A stretch of DNA of 64,000 nt from Tubulanus polymorphus (lineage: Eukaryota > Nemertea > Palaeonemertea > Tubulaniformes > Tubulanidae), in the NCBI RefSeq assembly GCF_964204645.1, contig NC_134025.1, positions 26,876,001-26,940,000 on the forward strand, in the 5' to 3' direction. Position 1 is the stretch's first letter; the number at the start of each line of letters is the position of its first letter. The notes below the pieces were generated by a model that was not told where the DNA came from, ran no database searches, and saw only the letters and a program-made list of their open reading frames with translations. Both the position numbers and the translations under genes were made by a program. Positions 28,284-61,130 of the stretch are shown in pieces.

Positions 28284-31200
28284 ATGGAGCCGTATGATTT
28301 AAGTTTGATGTTAAGTGTATTGGTTGCGCTGAGTGCACAGCTTCTGGCGGCTGTAGATGAAGGTCTCACGACAGGACACTTGGCCAGAAGTATTCGTTAC
28401 TCTGTTGATTCGGGGAGGTCAATCCAACCTCTGACATCTTTGAGTAGGAGAGACCTGCCGAAAAATGAGCTTCCGTCTCGTGAAGATATACAAAATCTTA
28501 TCAAAAAGGATGCGGTTTTCGCAGCTCTGGAACTGATTGAAGAGACGAAAGATTTAAACAATGAGAAGAATTGTACTCGCACAAGTTTAAATCATTTCAT
28601 TAATGATCATCATTATAAATTCCCTAGTAGTTCGCAAGTCAAGCAATTCACCCGTCAAATGGAAAATGCTGTAAAAACTGCCAATCTGTTAGGTAGTGTA
28701 TTTCAATCCGTGAAATCTGTAAAAAGTAATAATAACGTATATAATAATGGATTTTATTATTCTATCGTGCGCAGTAACTGTGAAAGTGATAGTACACTTT
28801 TTGGGTGTAGCATAGCATTTGCCCTTCATAAATACAATGGCATGAAGTCATTTTGCCCGTACGCCTACAGAGACAAGGGTTCTGGGCAAATCATTGTCAA
28901 AGACCTATCTAGGAATCTATACTACGCCCACAATAGAACCACAGGATGTGACTGGTTCACCAAGCAGCGAGAAAAAGATTTCTCATACTTGTACAAAAAA
29001 CATAACGTATCATTCCCGGTTCTGGAAGATGATGCTAGGAAAAGAATAAATAACGTGTCATTGATCATGGCAAGCAAGGATGAGGGTTATTGGTCACTAC
29101 CCTACTTCGACTGTCGCCATGGAAGCACGTGGCTGATAACGTATTCTGTACCATTCTTTGGGACGAACAAGGAATTCATGTAAGCAATATTTATTTTCTG
29201 ATTTGCATATCACTTTTTTATGGTATATATCGTATTTATACACTACGGTAATAGTCAGGAGCAGTAACTTTATAGAAGTCTCGAAAGCAGCTGTCGCAAC
29301 TAATATAACACATTTCTATGATAACATCGAATGTCGTTATTAAATTGACATTTCAATCGAGAATCGATTTCAGCACAGCCCTTAAATATTATGAAAAAAA
29401 CTTTGACCTAGCTAATTGAATTTCAATGCGTTTTCACGACATCGAATTTCAATATGTGCAAATAACATTTGGAGTGCAGCATTTCTGCTGAATTAATTCG
29501 GTTATGTCCGATTAAGAGTTCATAGAAAGTGGAAGGCAAAGCTTTGCCAAATGTATATTTACAGCATTCGTGGACATTATATCAACGTGGCCCATCCATT
29601 AACAGTCCTAATGCCTGTTGGCTAATAGACTCGATCAGGGTCGAACCATTGACTAACATCATACATAATCAAGACATGGCCGATATCAAGTACTTTAATC
29701 CGAGATATGCCTTCCTAGTGTTATTTTCCTGTTTTCTCCAAAAGCTACTTTGTCTGTAAGGTTAATTCTACTACTCGATCTAACCAGCTCCTGGACTACT
29801 CCTCGTGGTCGTACTATTTCCTTGCCTTCAGATTCTTTCATTACGATGTTTATTTTGTTTGGTAGTTTCTGTTTGCGAGTTTCTATCTTAAACAGTGTGA
29901 AAATGAACAGAAACAGTGTGAAAATGTGTACTGTGTAAATTGTAAGTGCGGTCGTTCGCTTTCAGGTGTTTTATGAATATCAATACGTGCATGTAGTTGT
30001 GGATAGTATGAAATGAAATGACTGTACCTTGTTTTGCTGTACAGATGGTTCTTTGTATATATTCATATATGATTTGTGTTGTAAGCTGAGAGAGCGATTA
30101 TGTGAGTGTGTGTGTGTGTGTGTGTGAATGTTATCCACTGTTTGCAGATGAGCAAGAAGTCGTAGAAGAACTGAATGAACGAAACGAAATGAATTCGACG
30201 GGTTGTTCCTCGGGTATATCACGGATGTTATGCATTCTGATATCGATTCTGATCGAGCCAAGAATAAATCAATTTAACCATAACTGTTACAAATATAATG
30301 AGAAGGGCGTTCTCCCTAGTTGTCAGAATTGGAACCTCACATCGATAGCCAATTATACAAACACGAACGGATCAAGTTTCGAAGATTGCGCTTGAACTAT
30401 TAGAAGATATGGTAAACCTGAAAAAACAAAAATAAACAGGCGGGGCAGACAACCAGCCAGACTGGTGGAAAACAGGAATGTGGATGGATGATAACTCGCT
30501 GCCAGCTACAATCACATCACCCGTGTGACGCTGTGTTGCTTATAGGGATACCTCAGTTGAACCCAACATTTTCATACGTGTCGTAACTTAATGTTATATA
30601 TCATCATAATTATCATCAGTACGAAACAGCAACAGATTATAATCGTCATCTTGTACAACTGGCACGTGCATCACGTGGCATAATTTATGAAATTATACTT
30701 ATACTGAACTCTTGCTCGTAGATAAGTGAATTCGCACTAATCTCGACGCAGAGCGGCATTAACATTAATTGCAATTGTGTCCTTTTTGTTATGAATAAGA
30801 GATCTTTCGTTTTTCGAAGGAATAATCTGCCAAATCCGATTCGTGGCATAGAATAAGATAGTGCACGCCTACGTCACTATTATCTTATAAAAGAATAATC
30901 TGACCAAATCAGATCGTCATTGAATTACGTGAATCACCGTGATGCATTTGATCCAGCGTCCCAAGACATCTCGCGCAGTATCTGACCAAGAGTGCAATTC
31001 CATACATGAGATATTAAGGTAATCAACCAAATTCTCGTGGACAGACCTACGGACACATACTATAATTTGTTCGCAAGGTGAACCACTGGTTGATGCGGTG
31101 GCAATCCATAATTAGGAAACACGGCCGCTTGTCCCGACGATGCATCAGCTGCCTTCGCTCGATGTTCCGTATGCAAATTAATATTTGCTCCTGTATGAAC

Positions 31201-40200: not shown

Positions 40201-43200
40201 TAACGAGTATCGCGAACACGTTCATCTTGAGATGGAGCGAAACTTACCATCCAAGTTGCATGCAATATCAATCATCATAATTATGCAGATTCTCGGCGTT
40301 TTGTCAGCAGCTTTTAATGTTACACCAGATAACCTTCAGACGTATGTTCTGGAATTTACAATTGCATACCTGTATATCTGTATCGATACAACATGCCTGA
40401 CTAACTCGATATATGTAAACTATGGGAAACGGAAGATGGTTATTCGAATAGTGAGGTACACTCGAACGAGTATGAAGTTGCAGAATAAAAAGCAGACAAC
40501 CGTTGCCGTACCATTCATATTACTGGAAATGTGCGAAGCATATTTCAACGCAGCCGATATACTAAATTATTCACGAGCGTTACGAAATGTGTTGGACAAT
40601 TGATGCGAAGCGCGCACCAAAGGTTAATTTGATTTAAGCCGCAAGCCGGGGACGAAACGGACAAAAGTGTTCTCACATACCGGTGCTGATGCAGCACTGT
40701 GAATTCAATGAAATAAAGCAATAATGTTTAGATATGGACATATCAAGCCTAGACTGCCTGTCAATAAATATCTACAGTTCCAGATCTCCACACATTTCAC
40801 ATTTTGGTCGACAAACCATCAAGAAGCAAAAGATACGCCGAGCTATCTCGCTCGATGGTCAGTTCGAATAAGACATGCCACAACAACGTTCGTAATATAC
40901 GAGCTGTTATACTGTCACATCAACCGCCATAACCGACTTGATAGCGAGAGGAAATGAATTATCCTTGAATATTGTAGCAGGTTATGCGTTCAGGAATATT
41001 GGCCTGTCTTGCGCTACTCTCGTTTTATTAATAAGATAAGTGCATGCAAGTATAGAATCACTGGGGTCTGCAGGTTTAACCATACTTACCACGACAGCAA
41101 ATAACTGTTTGCACAATGATACAAATACAGTTCCATTAGGCTCACGATGTTTGGCAACGTGATGCTCTTGGGAGTCCTGACAGATCTTAGGACAACTCTT
41201 CTTTTGAAGAATTATTAGTTTTAAGAATTCCATTGAGAGACGAAAACGACGATATAACTGTGTGCGCGTGTTCGCGTCTTTTCCTGGTTCTATACCCAAT
41301 GTTTTTCGTTTGATTTCGCTTCTGTTTTTCATGCTCTGTTTTGTTTGGTCGTTACAGGGGCGTTGTCGGTGTGGATATAGACCTGAAAAAACTCGACATC
41401 AACCAATGCGCCAATGACGGTGGTCTGTTTGCTAACACACACCGCTGCCGCGAGGAAACAACTCAGGTAATATCATCTCCATACGAAATTATCCAAAACA
41501 CGACATAATGAAACATTTACTGAGGCCGATTTTTGCTTTTTGAAGATGCTAATTGCAAATCTATTTTTTCAGTGTGTTCCAATTCCTGGCCAGGGCTTTC
41601 ATCGAGGCTCATATCGTTGTGAATGTAAAAAGGGCTTCTACTTCCCTCCTGCAGCTCCCGTCAACAAATACTTCAACGGTTCACAAGTGGAAGCGGCATA
41701 TATCTTGACAATTCTAACTAACAAAAAACACGACGAACTTGAATATAATACGGAATTTCAGTGTCTTCCATGTAATGGCTGTGAAAGTTGTACGGATGGT
41801 ACCCCATGTTATGTACAATATGACGTTATGTTGCGAGGTATTCCGCTCGGAATTCAAAGCTTCTGTATGACCATCACGTTAGTTTTGGGAATAATCATCG
41901 TCCGTTTACGGAAAACTCGGGTAAGTAGTGCAGACAGAAGGCTTTGTAATGATGGGAGAGAAAACCTAACAAAAGATTGGTTCAATAGATCCTATAAACA
42001 ATTTTCACTTGCGCCATATTTTTTTTTAAATTCAACTATCCAAGTAAACTCCAAAAACACATTCACTGAGAACCACAAGACATTTTTTTTGCTGATATTT
42101 AAGAATCTATTATCAAAATCATCATTTTGCTAGATTTCAGTTAAGTCGTTTTTCTCACGGCAACACCTTAATAGTATTATTGCATATATATCTTAATACA
42201 AAGCACGGTAATAATGAAATGGTTTTTGGGAAAACAAAACAAACAAAAAACATTATTAAAGTACAATATCGATTTCTAATGCTAATGATTATTGACTAAA
42301 GACAAATAACCTCTCATTTGAAAATGCAAAATGAACAACGCACTGAACAAGGTCGTCGGTTTTGCGTCCCTGGTAATTTCATAAATTGAATGAAAGAGAG
42401 AGTATAGGGGCTGCTTTTGAGCACGTTTTCTCATCAAAAGATACGTACAACCGAATTTATCAGCCATTAGCTCCGTGAAATAAGATGCATATTTACTTAA
42501 TTGAAGATATGTAGCTGGGTGTATATTTGAAGAAGCCGAATGAGAAAGCGTTGTTATGTTAGACGGTACGGCTGAATATACGTCGAACATTCTTGATAGC
42601 GGTTTATCTATCGGCCACGTATTATATGAATCGCTTTCGTAAACCAGCGAACAGGAGCGGCATGTTGGCAGATATCTGTCGATATTACGACACCTATACT
42701 ACATCTTAGATTCATTCTCGTCTGCTTGACGAACGACGGTGAAACGGTTGCCATGGGAAACCGTATCACTGAACTCCGAAACGCTTGAGGGTTTAGTTTC
42801 TGAGGTAGCGAGACTCACTCTCCAATGGATGCTGACAGAAAGGCGATGGATAATATATCTCTCTTCGATGCTGTTATACAAACTAGTTTTGATGTTGACC
42901 TAGATTATTAGGATCAAAATGACACTCGGATTCGTTTGACATCGAATATATCGTCTATATACTTCTTATATTCTGTGGTTGGCAATTAATCAGTACACGT
43001 CGTTGACAAGATAATACCACAATGACTTTCCATATTAGTTATACACCGTTAGTTAATATGCAAAGCGTGAAACGGTCAGCGACTCGTGGGATTGCGGTCG
43101 TCTCTAATAGCTATGATGATGAGCATTTTCGATGATCTATAACGTCGAGTCTACAATGAAAATTGCCAACCCTTAGAAAATAAATCTAATCGTTCAACAA

Positions 43201-46159
43201 GCCGTAAACGAACACCATAAATTTGGTTCATTTCATTTTATCCCAATAATTGATTCCTTAAATTTCTTTGATGGGTCTTCTATACTCCACTATATCAGTT
43301 TTGTTACTTCGTATCTCGAAATTATTTGCAAATCCACACATTCAAAGCTGATTTACGTATGAAATGATTCGAATATGAAGAAATATATAATTCTAAGAAA
43401 CTTTTCTTTCACAATAGGTGATGAAGTCCAGTATGTGGATCCTACTAGAAATCATCCTTATTGGGGCATTACTGCTGTACTCAACGGTAAGTTAGATATA
43501 GTCCCCAAAATACAATCCGGATCTTTGAAATGAAAGGCTTTCATTGGAATCAGATTTATAGAATACGAACTTTTCGTTTAATCGCCTCTCGATTGCTCGG
43601 CTATTTCAAGAAACGAATTCTCCGTTTGGAAAAACGATACCGTGAATCTGTACTCAATGAAATTGGCTCGATCTTGCAGTCCGAGTGTCTTTCATTCAAT
43701 GAGAATTAACTATTTTTTCAACAAGAAAGTATTTGTTTACATAAGATTGCGTTTCCCTCAGCACTATTTATTCAACCCAGTAGCGAAGTGTGAGAAGAAG
43801 CGCTGTCGGTAAAAATTCGAGAAAATAACGACTAACATGGAATGAAACAAATGCTCTCTAACCTAATAGAACAACGATCTGCATTATAGATTGTTATCTG
43901 AAACGGCAGAAAGATATCTGTAATTCGTCGTTTGCCTAACGATTCTTCTTAACGTCTTCTTCAGGTGGTTATCCAGTATTTTGAGCCAAATACCCAGACC
44001 TGCCTCCTAATACCCTGGTTCCGAGAATGTGGCTTTGCCGTGGTTTATGGTGCTCTTATTCTTAAAGTGTACAGGTAAAAATGCTTCGTATTTCAATCGA
44101 TCTATGCATTAGACGCAACCTTATATTAACCCACCCCCGTTTTCCAGGAAGAGATTTTCACGATTCTCAGAGAGAGAATTAAGACGCTGTTGACGACAAG
44201 CAGTCTGTCTAAAGGGCATAAGCGTCGTATTGACTAAGTTCTGTATTTTCCCTCTATCATTGTTTCGTGTTGCATTCTTTGAAAATCTAAAAATACGGCT
44301 CTATTCTCGATGCAGCTTCTTATCGATAGAAAACAACATAACCGGATATTTTTAGAATTATTTTGCGAACTATTTCGACCTCATCTTAAAATGGAAATTA
44401 CGTCGATGACGTGGATTATAAGTATTTTTGTTTCCCGATACCCAATGTCGAATTTCTTTAGTAAATAGGAAAATGTGCTATTCAAGTAAAATGAATTATC
44501 GTTAACATTATTGCAGAAATATTCGCACAAAAGGTTGTGTATTTTGTGTGTTCATACAATGACAATAATATAAAAAAAGTTTCTTCTGAATCTCTGTGGA
44601 TTCGAGTAAAAGGTAAATATTTTTGCTTTTCAGAGTTTTAGCTGAATTTCAGTCTCGAAAAGCACATCGAGTCCATGTGCGAGACCGCGATCTCCTAAAA
44701 TACCTTCTTGGCATAGTTTTGATAGTGATTGGATACATGTCAGCATGGACGGCGGTGAACATGGACCATGTGAGAGAAGGAGTGAACCTGCTTACTACCG
44801 GTGAAACTTCAGATAAGATCAAATTTCGAATATGTAAATCCCATTGGTGGGATTATGTTATTGAATTTGGTATGTATCCGAATATCCTACCTGTTTTAGA
44901 TGCTAAAGACAATTTTCATTAGCTATTTTCTAAAATTATCTCGATTTCCATTTATATCTAAATGTAAAATGTCAACAAAATCTAATCTATTTTATCATCA
45001 TTTTAGGGGAGTTTTTGTTCCTGGTTCTTGGTATATATCTTTGCTATTGTGTCCGGTCCGCCCCTTCAGAATACTTGGAGACTAAATTCATCTCTTGGGC
45101 TATATATAACGAAACCGTAATATCAGGACTCTTACACATTATAAGGTAGAATTTACGAAGATTTTGTACTCAAATCTCGCCTATAGATCGTTGACTTTTG
45201 ATAATAATTTGGAATAATTTTCAGACATTTTGTATGGCTACACGTGAATCCAGATTTTACTTTCCTCATGTATTTCATCCGCTGTCAACTTACCGTGTCC
45301 ACAACTTTAATTCTTGTTCTGGGACCCAAGGTAAAACAAAAACGAAAAATACATTCAATAATACGAAGACGAAAACCCTCAATCATGGAAAAACTGTAAG
45401 AGGATTTCGATGCTTCAACTCAAATGCATTGAGTGATTTACGAAAACAGAAACATCAAAATCCTTTTACAGTTTTTCTCTGATTGTGGGTTTTATTCTTC
45501 AACTGAATAAGACATTTCACTTGAAAACAAACTCCGTATCAATGTTTAAAATTTGCATAGATATGCATATTTTTTTAAGTGAATGGTTTTCTATTCTAGT
45601 TATGGTTCGCTCACCGACCACCAAGCGAGGACCAAATAAGAAATAGAGCATATTCGACATCAGATGTTCATGATACTATACTACCGGAATCTATGAAACT
45701 TCACGTTGGCGTGTCTTCCAACGGGGACGTTGATGTGGGAGAAATAAACCTATCCGAAATGGATCCTGAAGATATACGAGTATGTCCATATAATCGTAAG
45801 CAACACGCTGATTGATTAAAGGGTATTCATTCATCGTGATGTTTTATTTTGTTTTGCAGGCCGAATTGAAGAGGTTATACACCCAGCTTCAAATTTATAA
45901 AACTAAAACTATGCGAAAGGACAATCCGCATATATCGAAGCGGAGAGGAGGACGGAAACAAACGCACCGTCGTTTCTCATTACAACCATTCCACAAACAT
46001 CGTCATCATCATCACGAGGAACATGAGCACGAACTGTCAAAAACTCCCGAGGAGTCGACGAACAGTGCCGAAGGAGTAGCGATAACGTTAGATAGTGCAA
46101 ATAAGGCAGACGAAGTACATAATTTACCCAGTGTGACTTTCAAATCAGGTCATAAATAA
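28284..46159 (+). CDS. GPR158: GPR158/GPR179-like class C receptor, complete (10 exons, 830 aa)
   Basis: Exons: 28284-29179, 41358-41466, 41573-41920, 43418-43486, 43965-44074, 44634-44869, 45007-45145, 45225-45330, 45600-45779, 45860-46159. All have GT..AG introns and matching phases. Residues 1-23 are a signal peptide. An extracellular cache-type domain follows, with the family signature WSLPYFDC (270-277) and TYSVPFFG (286-293), continuing across intron 1 into GVVGVDIDLKKLDINQC. Next come an EGF-like Cys region (316-360), a Cys cluster (CLPCNGCESC, 399-408) and seven membrane helices between about 425 and 674. C487 before TM3 and C578 in loop 2 can form the usual class C disulfide. Vertebrate GPR158 is a glycine-responsive metabotropic receptor that acts through RGS7-Gbeta5; Drosophila homologues are Smog and CG31760. 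Ligand and coupling here are unknown. The tail (about 155 residues) is much shorter than in mammals and carries a His cluster. Confidence 0.93.
30106..30126. repeat. (TG)n microsatellite
   Basis: An uninterrupted TG run of about 21 bases inside intron 1 of the receptor gene. Seen directly. Confidence 0.9.
30820..30916. repeat. Direct repeats flanking a hairpin
   Basis: Two roughly 24-bp near-copies beginning GAATAATCTG (30820 and 30893) and ending near GAT(T)CG flank a hairpin formed by AATAAGATAGTG (30852) and CACTATTATCTTAT (30875). The copies differ by about four positions. It could be a small foldback insertion or a paired binding site. Confidence 0.45.
33280..33540. mobile_element. Possible MITE fragment
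   Basis: The edge CAGCCCCGTACGCAG and, 220 bp on, the segment CAGGATTTCGTGGGGGTTCG resemble ends common in animal hAT-type MITEs. The two edges are not inverted copies of each other and no target duplication is visible, so this may be a truncated or chimeric relic. The minus-strand open frame inside it (33279-33536) has no recognisable domain. Confidence 0.22.
35768..35799. promoter_or_regulatory. NRF1-like and YY1-like motif pair
   Basis: CGCATGCGCA (35768-35777) is close to the NRF1 palindrome, and GCCATCTT (35792-35799) is the core of a YY1 site. They lie 15 bp apart inside the receptor's first intron. AGCGCCA just before the YY1 core and TGGCGCT after it can also pair. In animals such motifs cluster at promoters, so an internal promoter is possible, but nothing else supports one. 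Confidence 0.25.
36663..36676. promoter_or_regulatory. Perfect CRE-type Maf element (C-MARE)
   Basis: TGCTGACGTCAGCA is an exact match to the 14-bp palindrome recognised by large and small Maf proteins (CRE-type MARE). The symmetry extends one base further on each side (T...A). It lies in intron 1 of the receptor gene. The match is seen; function is inferred. Confidence 0.4.
38492..38622. mobile_element. Possible short hAT-like MITE
   Basis: The stretch begins CAGGGTGGTTTCCGAGG and ends in a sequence whose complement is CAGGGGCAAATCTAGGATC, a typical hAT-type end. A 4-bp GAAA flanks both sides, whereas hAT normally makes 8-bp duplications. An internal GGGTTCGAACC resembles a tRNA B box but is more likely part of the MITE end. 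Tentative. Confidence 0.27.
38682..38693. promoter_or_regulatory. 12-bp ATF/CRE palindrome
   Basis: CATGACGTCATG is a perfect palindrome containing ATGACGTCAT, the preferred ATF/Jun full site. It lies in intron 1 of the GPR158-like gene about 2 kb after the C-MARE. Function unknown. Confidence 0.28.
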
Positions 46160-49100
46160 ACTAGTTATAGGTTATTACATTATACGCATTATATATATAA
46201 AAATAGTTATAAACCGTCGAATATGTTGAATCTTTTTTGTTACGTGGAAAAAAAACAAACTTTCGGTGTGTGACAGGTGATGATAATCTGTCATTTGTGC
46301 TCATAGGATACCGCAAGCTGATTATCTGTCTGGATTTATATTCACAGAAATTGGTGCTAGGGAGTTCTTCTGTCGAAACTTGCGTTTGGTCGTGTTTTAC
46401 AGAATCGATGCTGTAAACTGTTAATGCAGCATTTGTCGACTCGCTCGTGACCAGACGCATTCATTATTATTCTTCGTTGTGTATTTTATATAAAATTGAT
46501 ACGTCTTTGTCAGTGAATGATGATCGTTTTGGCTTGTGCATTATGAATTTAAAGATTCATGAAGTTGTATGTCGCGGAATTCGTAGCAATTTAATGTTTA
46601 TCATATATGCCACGAAGAAGCCATGTGTTGCTACTATTTTTACAACATATCATCGGTGATATTCTGATGCGCTGTGGTGTCAGTCTAACTTCGGAGTAGT
46701 CTGTTGGTCAGCGTGTATGATTGCAAACGGCTCAAGAGGTGTTTTAGCGACGGCGGCTATAATTGGTGACTACTACGGTCCTTTGGTGGTGTTTATGAAG
46801 GCTTTGGTACATTCTCCTCTATTTTGGACGAGATTATATATTTACCAATTCGTGATTAGGATAGGTGTTCATACTGATATACGTGGTGGTGCATGAACGT
46901 ACATATACGTCATCAGAATTTGCGGACTACGTGTACAAGCATTCATTCGGCCACGTGGCGCGGTTGATTGGTGGATTTGAAAATCAGATTCAGGTTATAA
47001 TAATACGTATACATACACTTTTCACAGTTATTGTCATCATGCATCTTTGGTGGACTTATCATGTGAATTTAGCTGCTTTGACATTAAGTGCTTTGTACAT
47101 TATGCTTTGTACATAAAGATATTTCTCAAATTCGTATCTTAGAAAATAATACGTCGAATCCCTTAACGCATTGGGATTATACATATACATAGATAAACTT
47201 ACATACAGAAAGGCAAAATATCTATATATCATTTAAACTAATTGTACATATTATCTCCTTCATTCATGTTATGCATATTTTCTCATTCATCAAGTCATTT
47301 TAGGTATTTTGCCGGACATATTATTTGTTGGTTATTAGATGTCAAACATCTTTCTATGTTGTAGTTTAAGAAACGTTGATAATGTGACGATCAAATAATA
47401 CATGAAACCTAAGGAAATGATGACGATATTTTAGATACTCATGTTGACGACTTGAAAATCGGGAGTAATGCCTTTTCCTCTGTCATGTAGTCGAGAATTA
47501 TCATTTTGTCAATTACAGCCGTGAAGTATCATGCTGAGCTATATCCTGAAAAAGCATCGGACATTGGACTTCCATGAATTCAATAACTCTACTACCAATC
47601 AATATCTTTTTCAAATTAATTTCAAAATCGAAACCAAACTTGCTGATAATCTTCACAATTCTAGACAACTTATCGTCCGTGTGTCTACCTCTTTATTAGG
47701 CAAGCACGATGAATATTTTCGGTGGGTCAATCTATAGTTTGAGATACACTATAAAAGAAAGCATGCTTTTTATTGTACATACTGCTATTTCTCATCACGT
47801 TAAATATCTTCCGTTTATTATGACTGCTAACATATGTTGGTGGTTGATTGTGATATGAATATATTCCAATCTAGGTTTTTATTTCCTTAGTAAATGTGTC
47901 ATTCCAGTGAGTTGCCAATAATGATTCATTTATTAAACTTACTGTTTTCTGAATACGTGTAGTTGATTCTTTTTTGAAAAAGTGCATCCTTTTAAAGATG
48001 AAATTACGCGTACCAGCATACCCGTGCATGTTATATATATAGATATACATATAGATGTATGGTTCGGGCTAGTAGATCACATTTTCTTGGAATTTGATTA
48101 AAAGTTGATATAAATTCTTCCATTTTAGTGTCACGTTGGTATGTATCAGTTGTTGATAAATTTCGTCACTGCGGCTTATGTAGGTGATTTTTATTTACGT
48201 GTTAAGTGATTTTTTTTAATCTCGGGTAGGGGTCTTTCGTCGATTCGATTCGATTCGACAAGAGACCATCACTATATCTTTCTCACTCTTTACGGTGATA
48301 ACTACATCAATCTTTCTGCGCACAAAATAAGCTTCTGTGGGATTTATTGTTCTTTTATAACGTAACTATAACGAAAGATTTTGTCGGTTTTTTAGATTTC
48401 TTCCGATTTGTGTTCTCTAGCTAGCTAGCTGAAAGTAGATCCGTGACGATCATCTCGGGTTGACCAGTTGCACAATTCTTGAATCAGCGGGAAATATTCG
48501 CATTGAAATCTCAAATTCTTCTAATTCCCGGTGTGCAGATGTAAAGCTAATGGGTTTGTTTGGTGGTGGACGTACTGGTGCTGTAAACTGAATCGAGATG
48601 TTATATACAGAATCCGTGCCATGGCCACCTATTTATCAGACCCTGTTCATAATAAGTATTTTGGGGGAACATATGAGCTGCTTGATTGTGATAATGTGCC
48701 ATTACACTATTTCAACAAATCACATGGCAGGTATAATGATATAATACAAAATTATTTTGTTACTTTTTTATTTACATTTTAATTTAATCAACCGGTTTGA
48801 TACTGGTAATCTGTCTTGTTTTTATCGTTTATCGTAGCGTAAAATATATTGCTATTGGTTACATATCTTCCAATCTTGGGGAGACCGATGCTATTTCAAA
48901 AGTTTGCTATTTCAAACAATTTTTCATACTTTCAATACATTATTAATACGATATGATATGGAGTATTCCTATTTTCATTTATGAATTCAAATATAGTATA
49001 TATTTACAATTTAAAAATTCTACATTGTTTTCCTTTTAGGAATATCGGTAAGATTATATTTAAAAAATCGTATTTCTTTTTTGAAAAAGTATAAAAAATA

Positions 49101-49653
49101 ATATAAACGTTTTCACAACCATCAAAGTACTATTTATCCATGAAATGAGGAAATCGAGGTCACTAATCGAAAACTTGTTCAATCATCGCTATCAATAACG
49201 GCGAAATCAAATATATTATTGCATGGTCCTAAATTTCAGAGGAACGCTGCTTTAGCGTCAGAATCAGATTTCCATCGTCATAGAATAAATATGACCAATT
49301 TAAATGTATATTTTTTACGAATACGGGTATATGTGTATATAGATACTAATGCATCATTAAGGTTACATTTGTGCGAATATAAGATGGTTTAACAATATAT
49401 TGATAGTAAAACAGATGGATTTTGGAAGCATCGTGTGCTAATTTAATGTAGAAATCAAGTTGTACATATACAGTGCTTCGATACCATTTTGTCATGTAAA
49501 CTTCAATCTCTGCTTATAATAAAGACCTTCCTAGAAGTGTTACGATACTTCATTTAAAAAGCTGATTACTTTTATGAGTTTTCTTTCTGTGGTTTTCCTG
49601 AAGAACTTCTCCTTGTGTATGGTGTATATTAGGAACTCGCGAATTTAAAAGTT
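46160..49653 (+). other. 3' region of the receptor gene, converging on gene A
   Basis: No gene is supported in this AT-rich stretch. An AATAAA overlaps the receptor stop codon (46155-46160). The next candidates are at 49284-49289 and 49518-49523, so the 3' UTR may be over 3 kb or the signal may be non-canonical. For gene A on the minus strand, TTTAAT (49443) would give a weak ATTAAA. Small runs of CTAG and GATTC units lie near 48.24 and 48.42 kb. Confidence 0.45.
47089..47114. repeat. Tandem TGCTTTGTACAT pair
   Basis: Two exact 12-base units (47089-47100 and 47103-47114) separated by TA, followed by ATAAAG. A similar GCTTTGTACAC..TATGCTGTA string occurs at about 13670, just before an AATAAAG, so both may be remnants of the same transposon 3' end. 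Confidence 0.4.
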
Positions 49654-51059
49654 TTAGGCTAGTTGAAATCGAACCAAAAGACACCAAAGAACGATCGCGC
49701 ATACTGAGATCATCATACAATGACTATTGTCCAACAGACTGACGCCCGAACTTGGAGTTGGTCTTGGAGGAGCACTGAAATTATTGGGCGCCATGACAAT
49801 TGTTGTTTTCACGCATCCAGCTGCTGTGGTATTTGTTACTGGATCCAACTTACATCCACTATAGTCATCAACAACCCACCAATTGCGAGGTGTAGGGATC
49901 GATTGTACAAAGTCCAGCCCTATATAATATAGATAACAAATATTAGAAGTGATAGGCTGATGGAACCCCGCATGGAAAAGTATTTTCTCGATAAAATTGT
50001 TAGGGGAAGATTCGAAAAACAGTACGAAGATTCCTACCTAATTTCCAATACACAAGTCCAGCTATAAGTCCAGCAAGTAATAGGCCCAATATCAAAGATG
50101 TGATACAACAGCAACAGCATCGACGTCTTCCGTCATATTCCAAATAACGACTATTTCGTGTACTGTACAGTTGTCCTCGTACTGGCCGATTTTTTACTAG
50201 AACATTTCTCTGAGAATGAGTAGAAGACGAACACCTATGTATGTGGCGTGTATTTGAGACAAATAAAACGAAAATAATGCTTACCCTTGAAACTCACCTT
50301 TGATGATGAAACAGTACGTACTGTGTTGGTTCTGGTGACGGATTGAGAGTTATCCGCCCTAATCGTAGTTGGAGTCATAGGCCTTGCACTGCGTGGCCGT
50401 TCCACGATCAACACTTCTGGTTTCTGTGGTTTGGGCTTTGACTTCATTTTCCTAGTCGGTGCAGATCTAGGGCGCTCCCTCGGAACTTCAACGACGAGAA
50501 CATCGGGAGATTTTTGTGGTATCGGTGATGCTGGTGGCGGCGATGGTTTGCGTACTTCTTTTTCCACGATGATAACCTGTGGTTGAGGTTGTACCGGTGT
50601 TGGAGGCGGTGGTGGTGTTGGCGTCTTCTGAACAACTACTGTCGGTGGAGGTGGATTTGGTGGTGGTTCTGATTTTGAAGGAGACGGCTGTCCAATCTGT
50701 ATATAAATCGGTGAAGCCGCCTGAGCATTAGGCGATGAAGCTCGTCTATCTGTTCCTTCGTAGTCTGGTTCAATGAATTGGCTTTCCGTTCGTAAATTAG
50801 AAATACTGCTACTCCGACTCGGCATTGCGGGTCTTTCCGGTTGCTTTGATGGCTTTTTTCTTCTACGATCCATTTCGTTCGCAGCTTCTAGAGTATGAAA
50901 GTAGGTTTTCCAGTCTTTCGTCCCAGCCTTTGACGGTGGAAGAGGTTTGCCTAATTTCCTGGCATGTTCAGCCTCATAGCCTCTGATTTTCCGCTTATCA
51001 CACTGATGACACCGTCCAGTGACGGGATCGCGGTCATGAAAATGATTACTACCTTCCAT
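49654..51059 (-). CDS. Gene A: unidentified Pro-rich, Cys-anchored membrane protein (3 exons, 399 aa)
   Basis: Minus-strand exons 51059-50298, 50209-50038 and 49919-49654, with introns of 88 and 118 nt in phases 0 and 1. There is no N-terminal signal peptide. Residues 10-20 (RDPVTGRCHQC) carry a CxxC pair. Residues 130-230 are very Pro-rich and hold four related motifs: TVVVQK (140), QVIIVEK (161), DVLVVEV (186), EVLIVER (215). A basic-Cys block (RRRCCCCC, 282-289) precedes one clear membrane helix (290-309). The roughly 90-residue ectodomain has WW, three Cys, NxT/S sites (N330, N352) and a hydrophobic C-terminal segment. Inferred topology: N-terminus in the cytosol, with the C-terminus GPI-processed or a second helix. 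It shares plan and intron phases with gene B, 1 kb away. I do not recognise the family; no function is claimed. Confidence 0.8.
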
Positions 51060-52026
51060 TTCTTGGATGAATGCGAATATTATCGAGGTAAATATTTGTA
51101 CTCTGTAGTTTATTTACACTTACCACGTACATGTACGTCGTTGACTAGAGTTCCTAACCGATAAATCCAATAAACAATCACCTCACCGACAAAATTCCTT
51201 CACAACAACATTGGTACCGTTACTAACTGCGTTATGGATATTTCTTGACATGACTGGTTCCACGATTATGTGAGGGCCTTTTCGAGCCATGAGATAGAAC
51301 GTTATTCTGACTATTTGTTTGTGAACTGATCACAACTGTCAGATTCGAGTCCATAAACAGCGTTTACGTGTTAATATTTGTTTAAAGCTAGGGATTTCTT
51401 GTTATGCTTAAAGGTTGCATCGATTGGTGGATTACGAGGTTTTCTTATACCTTTTACCTTTTTTACTGCAAATAAAACATCAGCGCATTGCTTTCCGACA
51501 GTTTTTGCGTGGCACCGAAAAAAGCACAGGCAAACTGTCAATTATCAAAATAATCGAGTTACGCTCAAATGAATAATATTCAATGAGTAGGGAAGAAACA
51601 TGATTCCAAAAATTAAGGATTGACGGCTCGACAATATAATACAGGCGACCGCTTTTGAAGTTTAACAAATATTTGCAAATATCATTTACCATGTATGTGT
51701 GTCAAACTGCTATAGGAACCGAACGTAAACATAACGGTAGTACGAATAAATTTTGTTAATAAGCAAATCAACAGCCAAGCGCTACTGAACATAAAACACC
51801 CACACTCTCGAACTTCTTGTAGGCAGATTGGGGTGTAAGTAAATTTGACCAGCTCATTGTCATTTTGTTGCACTGTCGGGTTAAACAAGTGTATTAAAAC
51901 TGGACGAAGAAACAAACAGTTGACTCCAACAAGTTTACAAACGTGACGGAATTTGATTGAATTGAGTTTAACATAAGAGAAAATCGACGAGATCTTTTGG
52001 AAAACATTTCATTCCTTACAGTGAAA
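51060..52026. promoter_or_regulatory. Bidirectional promoter interval of genes A and B
   Basis: The two coding starts point away from each other across 967 bp with no other gene between them, so regulatory sequence is probably shared. A pyrimidine-rich acceptor (ATTCCTTACAG) ends at 52021, six bases before the chosen start of gene B. Gene B may therefore have a non-coding first exon inside this interval. No TATA box is convincing. Confidence 0.45.
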
Positions 52027-53008
52027 ATGCCAATATCAAGTGGAGCCGGAGCCTGGCCAGCTAGCTACTGGCGGGAACCAACGAAGGTTGAACCGATGAA
52101 TGGAGCTTTTGACCACAGCTCCTCTTACAGTCAGAGACCTCCAATGCAGATATTACAGCAGCAAAAACAACCAGTTACAACATATCGGGTAGTAGAGCCA
52201 CGTTCTAGAGGCTGCTGCGGTCGAATGCTAAACAATAACGTTTGGCACGCAGGGCACAAGGTAGGTCGCTTACATTCTATAATTCAGATTGCAAATGATT
52301 GATGTTTTTACTTCATAAAGACTAATTTACAATTTTAGGGTTTGACTTCTGGGGTAATGACATCAGGGCAATTGTCCATGCATGGCTGTTGTACATTTCT
52401 ATTGGGATTGTTCATGCTAGCTTTACTGGCCGGAATTGCTGCAGCACTGTATTACGGAATAACAGGTATGGTACATTTTACTTCGATAGTTTAACTCCGA
52501 TAAATGGTAAATAAATGAAATAAGAACTGTTTTACGATATATTTAAGCCGCCATTGCTGCTGAGAACGCACGACGTTTAGCGATGCTGAGTCCTGGAGGA
52601 ATGCCAAATGATCGATTCTTTAGAGTCCATGGACTCGGTGTACCTTGCGTGTCGCGTCCCCCGGGTGGGGGTAATGTGCCCCCGGTTTCAGCCAGGCTTA
52701 AAATAGCAACTACGTTATCTGCAACAACTAAAGGGATCACAACTACTCTGAAAACAACGACTCCTCTTCGTACTACAACTACCACTCCTATCACGACCAC
52801 TCCACCTACCACGAAACCAGCAATTCCCGTTAAGACAACGTTACCAACAACTATTTATACGGGGAAATATTGTGACGAATTATCAACAGCGATTAATGAA
52901 ATCATCACAACCCCTGCATCAAAATCATCGCGTTCAATAAATGCTTCACTTGGACTTATTTCGCTGATGTCCATTGTCGTATCAGTTCTTCGTTACGGAC
53001 TGCAGTGA
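52027..53008 (+). CDS. Gene B: unidentified Thr-rich membrane protein paired with gene A (3 exons, 273 aa)
   Basis: Exons 52027-52260, 52339-52465 and 52548-53008; introns of 78 and 82 nt in phases 0 and 1. The ATG at 52027 is preferred over an in-frame ATG at 51997 because a splice acceptor separates them. The first 90 residues are polar, with a GCCGR block and no signal peptide. Then HGCC precedes a single helix (LLGLFMLALLAGIAAALYYG, 99-118). The ectodomain has a Gly/Pro patch (PPGGGNVPP) and a stalk of about 60 residues made largely of Thr and Pro, as in mucins. Next come a Cys (GKYCDEL) and a C-terminal hydrophobic tail after a small-residue stretch (SKSSRSINAS), compatible with a GPI signal, though Arg and Gln near the end are unusual for one. 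Probable diverged paralogue of gene A. Function unknown. Confidence 0.8.
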
Positions 53009-53143
53009 GATGGAGTAGTTGACCTGGATGGTGGACTTAACTGGTAGAACATCTAATGAATCGAGACCATAACATAGTTATTACCATTTCAGGATAATAT
53101 GACAAGTCGTTTTCAAATATTTGTATTGAACCATGTTTTAGAA

Positions 53144-53149
53144 AATAAA
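53144..53149 (+). terminator. Poly(A) signal of gene B
   Basis: A canonical AATAAA lies 136 bases after the gene B stop codon. It would give a short 3' UTR and leave about 180 bp before the candidate signal of the convergent GPCR gene. Confidence 0.6.
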
Positions 53150-53332
53150 ATTGCATATTTTCATACTGATGTATTGGTATTTTACTATTAGATTATCTGT
53201 TCAATGATTTTGTCCAACGATATTCCTGTATTGATAATGTTGTGATTACGGTAAACCAAATTATGGATTGGCAAGCAATCAATGGTAATGTATAACTAAT
53301 TTTTCTATTGATTGGAAATATTTTCTACTGAT

Positions 53333-53338
53333 TTTATT
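53333..53338 (-). terminator. Candidate poly(A) signal of the GPCR gene
   Basis: TTTATT on the plus strand is AATAAA on the minus strand, 174 bases past the GPCR stop codon. The two convergent genes thus end within about 500 bp of each other. Confidence 0.45.
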
Positions 53339-53511
53339 GATAAAGCCTGCCAACAATTTGAAAGTAGTTAGGTGTACGAATCGAAGGGAATGAAAATCGA
53401 CCAATTGTATTGATGACTTTCAAAAACTCGTTTCATGATGATTCAATAGATGAATGGATTTTCAATGTTAAAATTCATCTAGAGAATTGATTAAGTAAAC
53501 AGATATAGAAT

Positions 53512-54444
53512 TTACTGAATCTTCAAAAGCATGCGTGACTTATTGACGACAAATGAACGCACTTCCTTCCCCAATAGCAAATAAATGTAAAAATTCAAAG
53601 CGTAATTACAACTTTCAAGAAATGACAGGTACGTCGAGAATATCATTGCGTGTTGTTTCACCGGAATGTAAACGTTGATTGTTGCCGGTAACGTAGTTGC
53701 CATGAAAAACCCCGAAACGGTTACCAGCATGATCGTAGTGTGTCTGGCATTGGTCGCCTTGACATCGCTGTAACCAAAATCTACATATTTATAGAGATTA
53801 TATATTACCAGCAAATTTGAAATAATGATAATCATTTGTGGTATGACAAAGAGGTAAGCAACGATAAACTGATAAGCTATCCGTTGGTCAGCCGGGTCGT
53901 AATAGCACCCGTTTTCGTCAGAATATCTCATTATAACTATCCCATAACTGGCAGCAAGCGTGTTCGGCATTAGTGTCGAAACTATCACTACTCGAGCTAC
54001 ATTAGCCGTACATATTTGACGAGCTTTCAAAGGGAATAAAACTAAAACCAATCGTTCGACGGCTATTATTACAATCAGCCACGAACTTGTACATGAACAC
54101 GTGTAAACTACGAATTCGTATAAGCTGCATAGGAACTTCGTTCTGATGCTTATTTGGAAAAAGTATCCGACGACTGGGAGAAAAGATAAGTGAAGACTAG
54201 TTCCGAGATCTGAAACAGCCAATGCTGCCAGATAATTTGCGTACGAAAAACATTTGAAATTTGCATGTGTCATGACAATAAAACTGGCCACATTTCCGAC
54301 GAAGCCGATGCCGAATACTACTGATAAGATTATCAACAAAATGAAACGCAAAGTCCCTGGTATGCTGTTCATTCCATTTAGAACTACGAATGAATAATAT
54401 GGTCGACCTATGTTGTAAGTTAGTGACGCGTTCATATTCCTCAA
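53512..54444 (-). CDS. Orphan rhodopsin-type GPCR, intronless (310 aa)
   Basis: A single open exon encodes seven hydrophobic segments with class A landmarks: GN in TM1 (N51), LAVSD in TM2 (D79), C106 and C180 for the TM3-loop 2 disulfide, ERL in place of DRY (E130-R131), Pro in TM5 (P201), and NFYIY (284-288) in place of NPxxY. TM6 lacks the CWxP core but has LPA (P253). NxS glycosylation is possible at N5 (NAS). The short third loop and short tail (about 20 residues) fit small invertebrate orphan receptors, often placed near neuropeptide receptors. The ligand cannot be inferred. Other in-frame ATGs (M4, M25) are possible starts; M1 gives the fullest N-terminus. It is convergent with gene B and divergent from CNP. 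Confidence 0.85.
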   Translation of the reverse strand: MRNMNASLTYNIGRPYYSFVVLNGMNSIPGTLRFILLIILSVVFGIGFVGNVASFIVMTHANFKCFSYANYLAALAVSDLGTSLHLSFLPVVGYFFQISIRTKFLCSLYEFVVYTCSCTSSWLIVIIAVERLVLVLFPLKARQICTANVARVVIVSTLMPNTLAASYGIVIMRYSDENGCYYDPADQRIAYQFIVAYLFVIPQMIIIISNLLVIYNLYKYVDFGYSDVKATNARHTTIMLVTVSGFFMATTLPATINVYIPVKQHAMIFSTYLSFLESCNYALNFYIYLLLGKEVRSFVVNKSRMLLKIQ

Positions 54445-55389: not shown

Positions 55390-56797
55390 ATGGATATCTG
55401 GACTGGTGTCTTTACTGATAATTGTCAAACTGTGGAATTTCTAAAAGAAACGAAATGTATGTTCATTATGAGAGGTCTACCTGGATCGGGGAAATCGACT
55501 CTTGCACATCAATTAATGGAGACGTATACTGATTCCATAATTTGCTCGGCTGATGACCATTTCAAACAAGCTGATGGATCATATAATTTTTACGAAGCTG
55601 AGCTCAAAAATGCTCATGAATCCTGTCAATGGCGTGCGAAATCTGCCTGCTGTAAGAATAGAAATGTCGTTATAATTGATAACACTAACGTGAAAGCCTG
55701 GGAAATGAAAGCGTATCTAGAAATCGCAAACTCTCATGGTTATTTAGTTTACACAGTTCAACCAAATACCCCTTGGAGACGAAATGTGAATGAGCTGGCA
55801 AAGCGCAACAAGCATCACGTCGCCGTATCAATATTGCAGCGAAAGTTGTCGGCATTTGAAAATGTTTTGCCTATATACTACGCTTGGATTCTGACTGGGA
55901 AGGAATCTGAAAATTTGATCACCACGGCTCAACAGTTTCTTAAAATGTGCCTCGAAGTACGTCGAGTAGTAGACGAACTTCGTGACCACATCCCACAAAC
56001 TGCCTTAAAAGAGATGAGTAAGTTTGTTTGAATCATGGATAAAATATAGATAATTGCAATTAAGAATAATTAAGAATAATTAAGAATAATTGCAATGTAT
56101 GATTATGAATAATTAAATTGCAGAAGATCATCTATACTTTACAAGACAACATTTTTCTAGTTCAATACACAATATGCATTGCACCGCTATGTTTGACCAT
56201 GATACGTCCCGTTACCAGCCGTCCGGAAGAGCATTGAGCTACTCGACACTCGTCAAAGATGTCATGGGAACTGTAGATAAATTGAACGTCACCGGGTTCG
56301 TTATAACGACGAATTCATTTTGCGCGAAAGTGAAACTGAATGAGCAACAGTTGAAAATTTTCTATCGAGATTCCGATGACGGCGGTGGAAATTCGGCATC
56401 GGCGTCGGGTGCTACGAATTGCGGCGGACGCGCGGTTAATTCTTGGAGAACAAGACATGATTCTTATCCAGCCGGCTTTAGACAAACTAGGCATGCAAGT
56501 GATATTTCGGATTTGAATTCTCGATTTACGTCGCTTAATTTATCGTCATTGGAGGCGCCATTACCCAAAGGTACCCGAGCTCATATAACTCTAGGCTGCC
56601 GTGTCGGTGTCCCGCCCGTTACGGCCGGAAATGAACTTCTCATGATCAGTAAGCTGTGGGCTGCCTCGTCCTATAAGTGGAAACAGAAATGCGATTGTTT
56701 TGAGGTTACGTACTACGGAAATGGGATGTTTTTCGTAGATCTTAACAAGCCAATACAGGTGACCACAATTTTTGCCGGTCAGTTTGCTCGAAAGTAG
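55390..56797 (+). CDS. CNP: 2',3'-cyclic-nucleotide 3'-phosphodiesterase (2 exons, 433 aa)
   Basis: Exons 55390-56017 and 56124-56797, joined through a split Lys codon (phase 1) across a 106-bp intron. CNP hydrolyses 2',3'-cyclic nucleotides to 2'-nucleotides. The N-terminal half is a P-loop kinase-like domain (RGLPGSGKST, 28-37; VIIDNTN near 98-104). The C-terminal half is a 2H phosphoesterase with both catalytic motifs, HCT (228-230) and HIT (363-365, in RAHITLGC). Length is close to the 421 aa of the human enzyme. Two differences stand out: a polar Ser/Gly/Arg-rich insertion (about 290-352) between the two catalytic motifs, and a C-terminus (FARK) without the CaaX prenylation box that anchors mammalian CNP to myelin membranes, so this form is probably soluble. 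The start is just before the conserved hydrophobic strand and P-loop, as in vertebrates. Confidence 0.93.
56061..56090. repeat. Three tandem TAAGAATAAT units
   Basis: Three exact 10-bp units fill almost a third of the CNP intron (56018-56123) and are flanked by TTGCAAT-like strings on both sides. Seen directly. Confidence 0.85.
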
Positions 56798-58856: not shown

Positions 58857-61130
58857 ATAATTCAATTCAATTCAATTAATTCTTTATTGTTCCGTAACGT
58901 AGTTAAACATTATAAGATTAAGTACAATAAAGACAGGGGGATAAAATATAACATTTTAAAGATAGAGATAACAAAAACAATAACAGTTTAATATACATAT
59001 ATACACGATGTAGACAGGTTTTCAGTAAGTGAATCAGTGATAGTTTAATTAATGGATACTGCGACGTAACACTCAGATTTCAGATTGTTTTTTTTTCATG
59101 AGTTAGACCCTTTCTCGATGTATTTCCCTAAATATTTGGCCATTTCTATAGAGGACATTATAGTTACAAATTTGACTTTATCATTTACATTCGACATGCT
59201 AGGATATTGATTATAAAATTCAACAGATCTGTTCTTAAATTATCAAATTTTGCACACTCCATTACAAAGTGGAACTCATCTTCTACTACTTCGCATCTGC
59301 TACATAAGCGTTCTTCCCTAGGGATACCTAGGTAGCGCCCTTTCTCAATCATAAGTTTGTGTGCACTGAGTCTTAATTTGGTTAGAGCTGTCTTAGAGGA
59401 AATTGGAATGTTCAGTAGTAAATAGGGTTCCAAACTGAATTCTGTTTTGAAGATCTTATATGAGTCAAGTTTGTTAAAGCTTTGAATTTTTGTTTTCCAG
59501 AATATTTTATATCGCTCTTGGAGTATGTGTTTGAACCTTTTAATATGCTGATAGGTCTGGCCAACTTCTAACAGGTTGAGACTATTTGTAGCAGACAGAA
59601 TGGCTTTTAGGAAAATAGTCCAGTCATTTGTCTGGTTTTTCATAGAACTCAAATCTTTCACCGTTATATTTACAATACTATTTACATTTGTACACATGTG
59701 GTTATAAAAGTTAATTATACGGGAAAATGCATCTATATAAATCGGTAGTCTTCCTAATTCACCGAGTACTGCTAAATTGGTAGTTTTTTTTTGTTTACAT
59801 GCAATATGAATTTGCAGAATTTGACAGTTAATTTATTGAGTAGGTCATCCTTTTCCACTACTTCCTCAATTGGGAATGTACCCTTGTTTTTGAATATTTT
59901 CTTAGCAGTGCTCGTTTTTGGTAACCAAATCTCACAACCATATAATAGGATGGGTGTTACCAAAGTGTCAAACAGCTTTAACGATACATTGGGTGGACAA
60001 TCTTGAATACCAATCATTTTTTGAATACTGAACATGGCTCGGTTAGCCGATTTGAATAGATCTTCTCTAGCTTTGTTAAAACACCCTGATGCTGTAAATA
60101 TAAGTCCTAGATATTTGTACTCTTTTACTAATTCAACATTAATTCCATTTATATAAAAATGTGTGTTAATTGGTATATGGCCATTCTTATTAAAAATTAT
60201 TGCCTTACTCTTTTCAATGTTTATTTCTAAATTCCATTTTTGACAGTATTCTGCAATTTTGTCAAGGCAGTTTTGAAGACTATGTTTAGAATTCGACACT
60301 AATACAAGATCGTCGGCATATAATAGATAATTTATCAGCATGTCGCCCAGTGGAACTGGGTCACAAGACTCATCGAATATAGACATAATATCGTTAATAA
60401 AAATGTTGAAAAGCATCGGACTCAGAGTGTTTCCTTGTTGTAACCCAATATTTGAGCTGAATTTGCTGGATGTTTGGTACGTGTTAAGTTTCACTCTACA
60501 GGTGATATTCCGATACATACTTTCAATGATGCGAATGAAGTGATCTCCTAATTCTAATTGTTTCAATTTGTATATTAGACCCTGGTGCCAGACTGAGTCA
60601 AATGCTTTTCGGAAATCAATGAAACAGGTATAGATTTTATTGGATGAGGATAATTTCTTATCGACAAGTCTCTTTAGTGTGAACATATGATCTGTGGTCC
60701 TACATTTAGGCATGAAACCAATCTGCTGAGGTACAATCAAATTGTTTGATTTCAGTTGTTTTTCTGACATTCAGGATATGACAAAACACTTTACCGAGAC
60801 AACTGCTTAAGGTAATTCCCCTATAGTTATCGGGCAATGATTTATCGCCCTTTTTATAGAGAGGAGCAATCAGACCTTCAGCCCATGAATCTGGATAGAT
60901 AAGCCGCTAGAATAAACGTAGTTAAATAATTTTGAAAGGGGCTTGACAAGATAGTCTTTCCCGTACTTTAAAATTTCGTTGGTTAATCCATCAGGCCCTG
61001 GTGACTTGTTGTTCTTCAGGGCTGATAGAGCTTCCGAGATTTCTCTTTCCGTGATAAGAATGTCCAATTCAGTAAAAGTAGGTAAATCATTTGGTAAATA
61101 TATTAAACTTATGTAGTCTAGCTGTCGTTG
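58857..61130 (-). mobile_element. 5'-truncated non-LTR retrotransposon (LINE)
   Basis: The minus strand carries reverse transcriptase and C-terminal coding sequence, a 3' UTR of about 300 bp, an AATAAAG, and a (TTGAA)n tail (TTCAA units at 58861-58876 on the plus strand). This is the usual structure of a LINE copied from its 3' end. Nothing upstream of the RT N-terminus (no endonuclease) can be recognised beyond about 61.1 kb, so the copy is 5'-truncated. The family is most like the Jockey/I/CR1 assemblage; I cannot place it more finely. No target-site duplication was found. It lies between CNP and FAM50, opposite to both. Confidence 0.85.
59185..61105 (-). pseudogene. Frameshifted LINE ORF2 (reverse transcriptase)
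   Basis: Reading down the minus strand: an RT N-terminal part (KNNKSPGPDGLTNEILKYG, about 61050-60960); then SWAEGLIAPLYKKGDK and NYRGITLSSCLGK in a second frame; then the polymerase core with FIDFRKAFDSVWH, GLQQGNTLSPMLF and YADDLVLV (catalytic Asp residues intact); and finally a C-terminal zinc-like region CSRCEVVEDEFHFVMEC. Continuity breaks at three places: near 60900, near 60770, and in an A-run near 59790. Only these shifts interrupt it and no internal stop was noticed within the three blocks. The copy is therefore dead but fairly young. Confidence 0.85.

Follow-up and report, generated by a model that had tools for sequence, protein, structure and literature searches.

Two genes, A and B, stand head to head in the window, the 64,000-nucleotide stretch of the Tubulanus polymorphus genome analysed here, and raise the question of whether they are relatives and what kind of membrane protein they encode. 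A first-pass annotation had described them as a divergent pair of membrane proteins of unknown family, attached to the membrane near both ends in the manner of tetherin and derived from one gene by inverted duplication. The mapped coordinates (Table 1) agree with the divergent arrangement and the 967-bp gap, and also with the predicted three exons per gene and intron phases of 0 and then 1 around a hydrophobic helix. Judged from their sequence, A and B appear to be two protein-coding genes of an animal nuclear genome and are presumably expressed. The size of the genome, its short introns and its gene content fit an invertebrate; COX1, sought in this genome, gave no match.

Table 1. Positions of genes A and B, their parts and their neighbours in the window
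Feature	Position	Strand	Description
PDC sensor domain / GPR158/179 extracellular domain frames	28284-29180 and 41540-42130	+	Upstream; Pfam
Gene A	51059-49654	-	399 aa, 3 exons
Gene A exon 1	50298..51059	-	Residues 1-254, N-terminal, Pro-rich, mostly disordered, Cys 17 and 20
Three V-[IL]-[IV]-V-E motifs in Pro-rich region of gene A	50400..50576	-	Residues 162, 187, 216
Gene A exon 2	50038..50209	-	Juxtamembrane segment, CCCCC, transmembrane helix
Gene A Cys run and helix	50045..50119	-	Residues 285-309
Gene A exon 3	49654..49919	-	Short ectodomain (2 Cys, 2 N-glycosylation sequons) and hydrophobic C-terminal end
Gene A hydrophobic C-terminal tail	49657..49719	-	Residues 379-399; candidate GPI sites S368, G370, weaker D375
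Gap between start codons of A and B	51060..52026	.	967 bp
Gene B	52027-53008	+	273 aa, 3 exons
Gene B exon 1	52027..52260	+	Residues 1-78, CC at 63-64
Gene B exon 2	52339..52465	+	CC and transmembrane helix
Gene B Cys pair and helix	52387..52461	+	Residues 95-119
Gene B exon 3	52548..53008	+	Ectodomain with 2 Cys, then hydrophobic C-terminus
Gene B Thr-rich mucin-like stretch	52709..52852	+	Residues 175-222, Thr 24/48
Gene B hydrophobic C-terminal tail	52949..53005	+	Residues 255-273; candidate GPI site S245
Rhodopsin-type receptor	53515-54444	-	One open frame, downstream of and beside gene B; 7tm_1, E 6.3e-15
AAA_33 domain	55390-56028	+	Pfam
CNPase domain	56174-56794	+	Open frame adjoining AAA_33
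Reverse transcriptase open frame	59775-60770	-	Pfam

The introns of gene A measure 88 and 118 bp and those of gene B 78 and 82 bp, and all four have GT...AG borders. In both genes, a phase-0 intron lies 5′ of the Cys-preceded helix and a phase-1 intron lies just 3′ of it. An open frame of 292 codons contains exon 1 of gene A. For comparison, 100 random sequences of 64 kb were generated with the order-2 composition of positions 43501-53500; their longest stop-free runs had a mean of 164 and a maximum of 228, so the frame is longer than chance would provide. Furthermore, AATAAA or ATTAAA follows the stop codon at a distance of about 206 bases in A and about 136 bases in B. An error in either gene model or in both, through missed exons, a wrong start or lack of expression, is unlikely in view of this long open frame, the four canonical introns with their fitting phases and the poly(A)-like signals. 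The doubt arises from codon usage, which ranks the proposed frame top of six in only two of the six exons (A3 and B2), although this score is uninformative with its very small training set of only three Pfam-supported stretches.

The most hydrophobic stretch of each protein directly follows the Cys run A285-289 or the Cys pair B95-96, just as had been proposed from the first reading. Protein A has 284 residues ahead of its Cys run, 16% of which are Pro. A single-sequence AlphaFold2 model of its exon 1 product has a mean pLDDT of 54 and contains helices of at least four residues only at residues 18-36 and 50-67, with no other sizeable element. The corresponding model of the exon 2 product (57 whole codons) consists of one helix, at residues 20-56, with a mean pLDDT of 83-95 across residues 31-57. 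The three V-[IL]-[IV]-V-E copies in the Pro-rich region of A are arranged in tandem with spacings of 25 and 29 residues, and none of 20000 shuffles reached three copies of this pattern, which was picked after being seen. We take these motifs to resemble SUMO-interacting motifs. A likeness noticed by eye between 'VVEPRSR' in B and 'IVERPRSAR' in A was dropped, as a different stretch gave the best alignment, with P 0.32 (3000 replicates).

In protein B, 94 residues precede the Cys pair and helix, and the ectodomain that follows spans 135 residues, including 15 Pro and 21% Thr. The ectodomain of A is shorter, at 69 residues with 8 Pro. Each holds two Cys, in keeping with the first reading, which had called for one or more. 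N-glycosylation sequons past the helix number two in A and one in B, the latter adjoining the tail. Both proteins end in the expected hydrophobic C-terminus.

Neither protein matched any Pfam family at E<=1 or any NCBIfam family, the latter collection having been made for prokaryotes, and the description of an unknown family is thus upheld for the profile libraries searched. In the PDB at E<=1, B had no match and A had only four weak, unrelated matches, the best at E 0.095. The organism's own genome (267.8 Mb in 77 contigs) was searched with residues 1-109, 255-312 and 313-399 of A and residues 1-78 and 79-165 of B, leaving aside the largely Pro- or Thr-rich segments A 110-254 and B 166-273. 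Apart from the query pieces themselves, this search, in which weak matches can be missed, yielded three spurious places and no credible further copy. Of the 58 residues of the A exon 2 query, one place (C8:9021997, E 0.0096) matched no more than residues 11-39, which form the juxtamembrane and Cys part; it was rejected for this reason and for its antisense position within a 725-codon open frame, located at L007 4187-6364 on the - strand elsewhere in the same genome. Another (C11:545311, E 1.1) has an internal stop and a best frame of mean hydropathy 0.07, and the one other genomic match of B exon 1 (E 4.47) has three stops.

The 967-bp gap likewise has no second genomic copy, with only itself found at E<=0.01. 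Among viral contigs, two stretches fitted a pattern when residues 1-80 of A served as the query, and neither was confirmed. Keyword searches of the literature showed no described relative among the papers listed, which leaves room for published descriptions that they missed. The two genes are accordingly called orphans with respect to Pfam, NCBIfam, the PDB and their own genome as searched, and they are likely to be a lineage-restricted pair of surface-protein genes.

Evidence for a common origin of A and B comes from the helix exon. An ungapped alignment of the exon 2 products covers 23 residues with a score of 50, and in both proteins the residue that the phase-1 intron splits lies 26 places beyond the first Cys of the alignment (A286-A312 and B95-B121). 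Plain shuffling of exon 2 gave P 0.001 (2000 shuffles). The score of the helix parts alone was reached in 0 of 2000 shuffles, and that of helix and flank shuffled apart in 1 of 3000. With the Cys pair held fixed, P was 0.003 in register and 0.008 for the core only (100000 replicates each), and 0.017 for a local alignment (10000 replicates). Against random helices of assumed composition, P was 0.005-0.006 (20000 each). No similarity between A and B was detected in exon 1 (shuffle P 0.47) or exon 3 (shuffle P 0.39).

The helices were also compared with 83,572 overlapping, stop-free 26-residue frames drawn from 178,502 bases (the window and 12 loci), a rough yardstick given that the frames overlap and only 2,101 of them are hydrophobic. 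The helices of A and B were reciprocal best matches, scoring 44 each way. The next best score against the B helix was 32. Against the A helix, it was 42, in L008, the place that the genome search had singled out for its match to A, followed by 38 at position 2351 of L007, a site chosen on no such ground, and then by 29; the L008 and L007 frames are not hydrophobic (mean hydropathy 0.07 and 0.25). A separate comparison, in which 24 hydrophobic segments of the window served as decoys, was dropped because the two helices were themselves among the decoys. Repeats of 16-25 nt at positions 49000-53600 comprise eight direct families and four inverted pairs, and no inverted pair in this interval connects a coding exon of A with one of B. 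Taken together, the support for shared ancestry is modest and confined to the helix exon, for which the sequence comparisons leave common descent at about even chances. The first-pass annotation had inferred shared ancestry of the two genes; its claim finds some support in the alignment and in the place and phase of the intron for exon 2, and none in exons 1 and 3.

The main competitor to common descent is a chance head-to-head placement of two lineage-restricted membrane-protein genes that are not related to each other, a reading to which we give somewhat less than an even chance. It would treat the Cys residues, the Leu/Ala/Gly-rich helix and the intron phases as coincidence and common usage: phase 0 followed by phase 1 is a common combination, the product of the animal phase frequencies being 0.135. 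The dissimilarity of exons 1 and 3 speaks for this reading, and the likeness of the helices is weak after composition is allowed for. The B exon was not listed when A exon 2 was run against the whole genome at E<=10. Chance explains less readily that, measured against the ungapped alignment of 23 residues, the introns agree in both place and phase, or that the two helices are reciprocal best matches among the frames scanned.

The manner in which the two proteins sit in the membrane is a separate matter, compatible with either answer on ancestry. Over 15 residues, the charge of A is +3 ahead of the helix and +1 behind it, which makes a cytoplasmic N-terminus reasonable for this protein; the corresponding values in B are 0 and +1. 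Of the cytoplasmic N-termini proposed for both proteins, flanking charge thus favours that of A and not that of B. The sequons, the ectodomain Cys and the Thr-rich stretch all lie past the helix, which supports the placement of the ectodomains; for B, whose charge flanks do not favour a cytoplasmic N-terminus, the Thr-rich stretch itself suggests an outside placement. At the C-terminus, a simple home-made heuristic (omega/omega+2, spacer and tail) makes a GPI anchor possible, and a second transmembrane helix would fit equally. In A, the tail has a mean hydropathy of 2.13 behind G370 and 1.77 behind S368, while D375 has a hydrophobic spacer. The value for S245 of B is 1.46; S248, N252 and S254 satisfy the omega rule too, but with hydrophobic spacers. 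Both proteins might instead be two-helix hairpins with cytoplasmic termini at both ends, no GPI anchor and the ectodomain as an extracellular loop, and this prospect falls only just short of even. An Arg lies behind the hydrophobic run near the end of both tails (RFQLA in A, RYGLQ in B), as the positive-inside rule would have it, and the tail of the best GPI candidate of B, with its mean hydropathy of 1.46, has a polar end. Against a hairpin are the presence in both proteins of a candidate omega site with spacer and tail (G370 and S245) and the hydrophobic run of B, which at about 14 residues is short for a helix.

A further proposal takes its cue from tetherin (BST2/CD317), described in PMC3715405 as a protein whose cytosolic tail is short and whose ectodomain, mainly helical, forms a disulphide-linked dimer. 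If A and B were tetherin-like surface tethers, they would bridge membranes and perhaps restrict the release of enveloped viruses. In outline they do match the tetherin plan given there, with a helix behind an N-terminal part that may be cytoplasmic, ectodomain Cys and a possible C-terminal lipid anchor. The resemblance does not extend to the details: the C-terminal GPI anchor of tetherin has only a candidate counterpart in A and B, by our home-made rule; its ectodomain forms a mainly helical, coiled-coil dimer rod, whereas those of A and B are Pro-rich, Thr-rich too in B, judged by composition only; and the long N-terminal part of A contrasts with the short tetherin tail. Furthermore, neither protein matched the tetherin family in Pfam or the PDB at E<=1. 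Tetherin-like tethering is therefore very improbable.

In PMC3212813, plant NDR1 is described as GPI-anchored at its C-terminus, and a helix near its N-terminus, predicted to stay uncleaved, is proposed to act as a second anchor. As NDR1 shares the outline, the double-anchor plan is not peculiar to tetherin. The tetherin-type comparison of the first reading is not supported, in view of the missing sequence match and the Pro/Thr-rich ectodomains. The domain of the NDR1/HIN1-like family is LEA_2, and no such domain was found in the ectodomains of A or B by Pfam at E<=1. NDR1/HIN1-like (NHL) proteins possess conserved motifs of their own (PMC3212813), in contrast with A and B, which lack a Pfam match. 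Neither tetherin nor NDR1 is a family assignment for A or B.

Two simple patterns detected no TATA box in the region between the genes, where the observed/expected CpG ratio is 1.21, compared with 1.19 for the window. The latter value, taken over positions 1-64000, gives no sign of CpG depletion. Collagen IV alpha1 and alpha2 are encoded by a head-to-head gene pair, and their products are partners. A and B share this divergent arrangement, which could couple the expression of partners; unlike those of collagen IV, their co-expression and binding are hypothetical, as is the shared regulation proposed in the first reading. Among the neighbours, the two upstream frames are probably exons of one receptor gene, with the GPR158/179 extracellular domain exceeding the cut-off only in 41540-42130. 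The AAA_33 and CNPase frames probably belong to one gene, and the reverse transcriptase is probably part of a LINE. Scans of the window for tRNA genes and Rfam families found none. No neighbouring gene suggests a function in common with A and B.

Starting from the observed gene anatomy, helix-exon alignment and residue pattern, the best explanation as a whole is that A and B are helix-exon paralogues encoding signal-anchor proteins with a second C-terminal attachment and possible pairing; it extends by inference to expression, topology, lipidation, the second anchor, pairing and function, and is held tentatively, below the level of an even bet. An old inverted duplication would have produced both genes from one ancestor, at least in the helix exon. 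Each product would be a signal-anchor membrane protein with a cytoplasmic N-terminal region, Cys residues at the membrane face that are probably palmitoylated, one helix, and an ectodomain that carries Cys residues as well as glycosylation sites and is mucin-like in B. A GPI anchor or second helix would then attach the C-terminus.

Small residues occupy the same four helix places in the two proteins (A300, G301, A304 and G305 in A; A109, G110, A113 and A114 in B). The small-xxx-small pattern packs helices, and the matching faces, together with the head-to-head arrangement, suggest that A and B may pair in the membrane if they are made together. The long Pro-rich part of A, with its three V-x-x-V-E motifs, could serve as a cytoplasmic docking part, and the Thr-rich stalk of B would be the outward part. 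The fullest version of this account, an invertebrate surface module in which two diverged paralogues share a divergent promoter region, have an anchor at either end, pair by way of their matching small-xxx-small helices and combine a multivalent docking tail on A with a mucin-like stalk on B, is improbable.

Genes without a family are common in animal genomes, and as things stand A and B are an orphan gene pair whose relation is uncertain. If the preferred account of helix-exon paralogues is true, the helix exon would be the sole part still recognisable after the duplication, and A and B would constitute a doubly anchored membrane-protein pair beyond vertebrate tetherin and plant NDR1.
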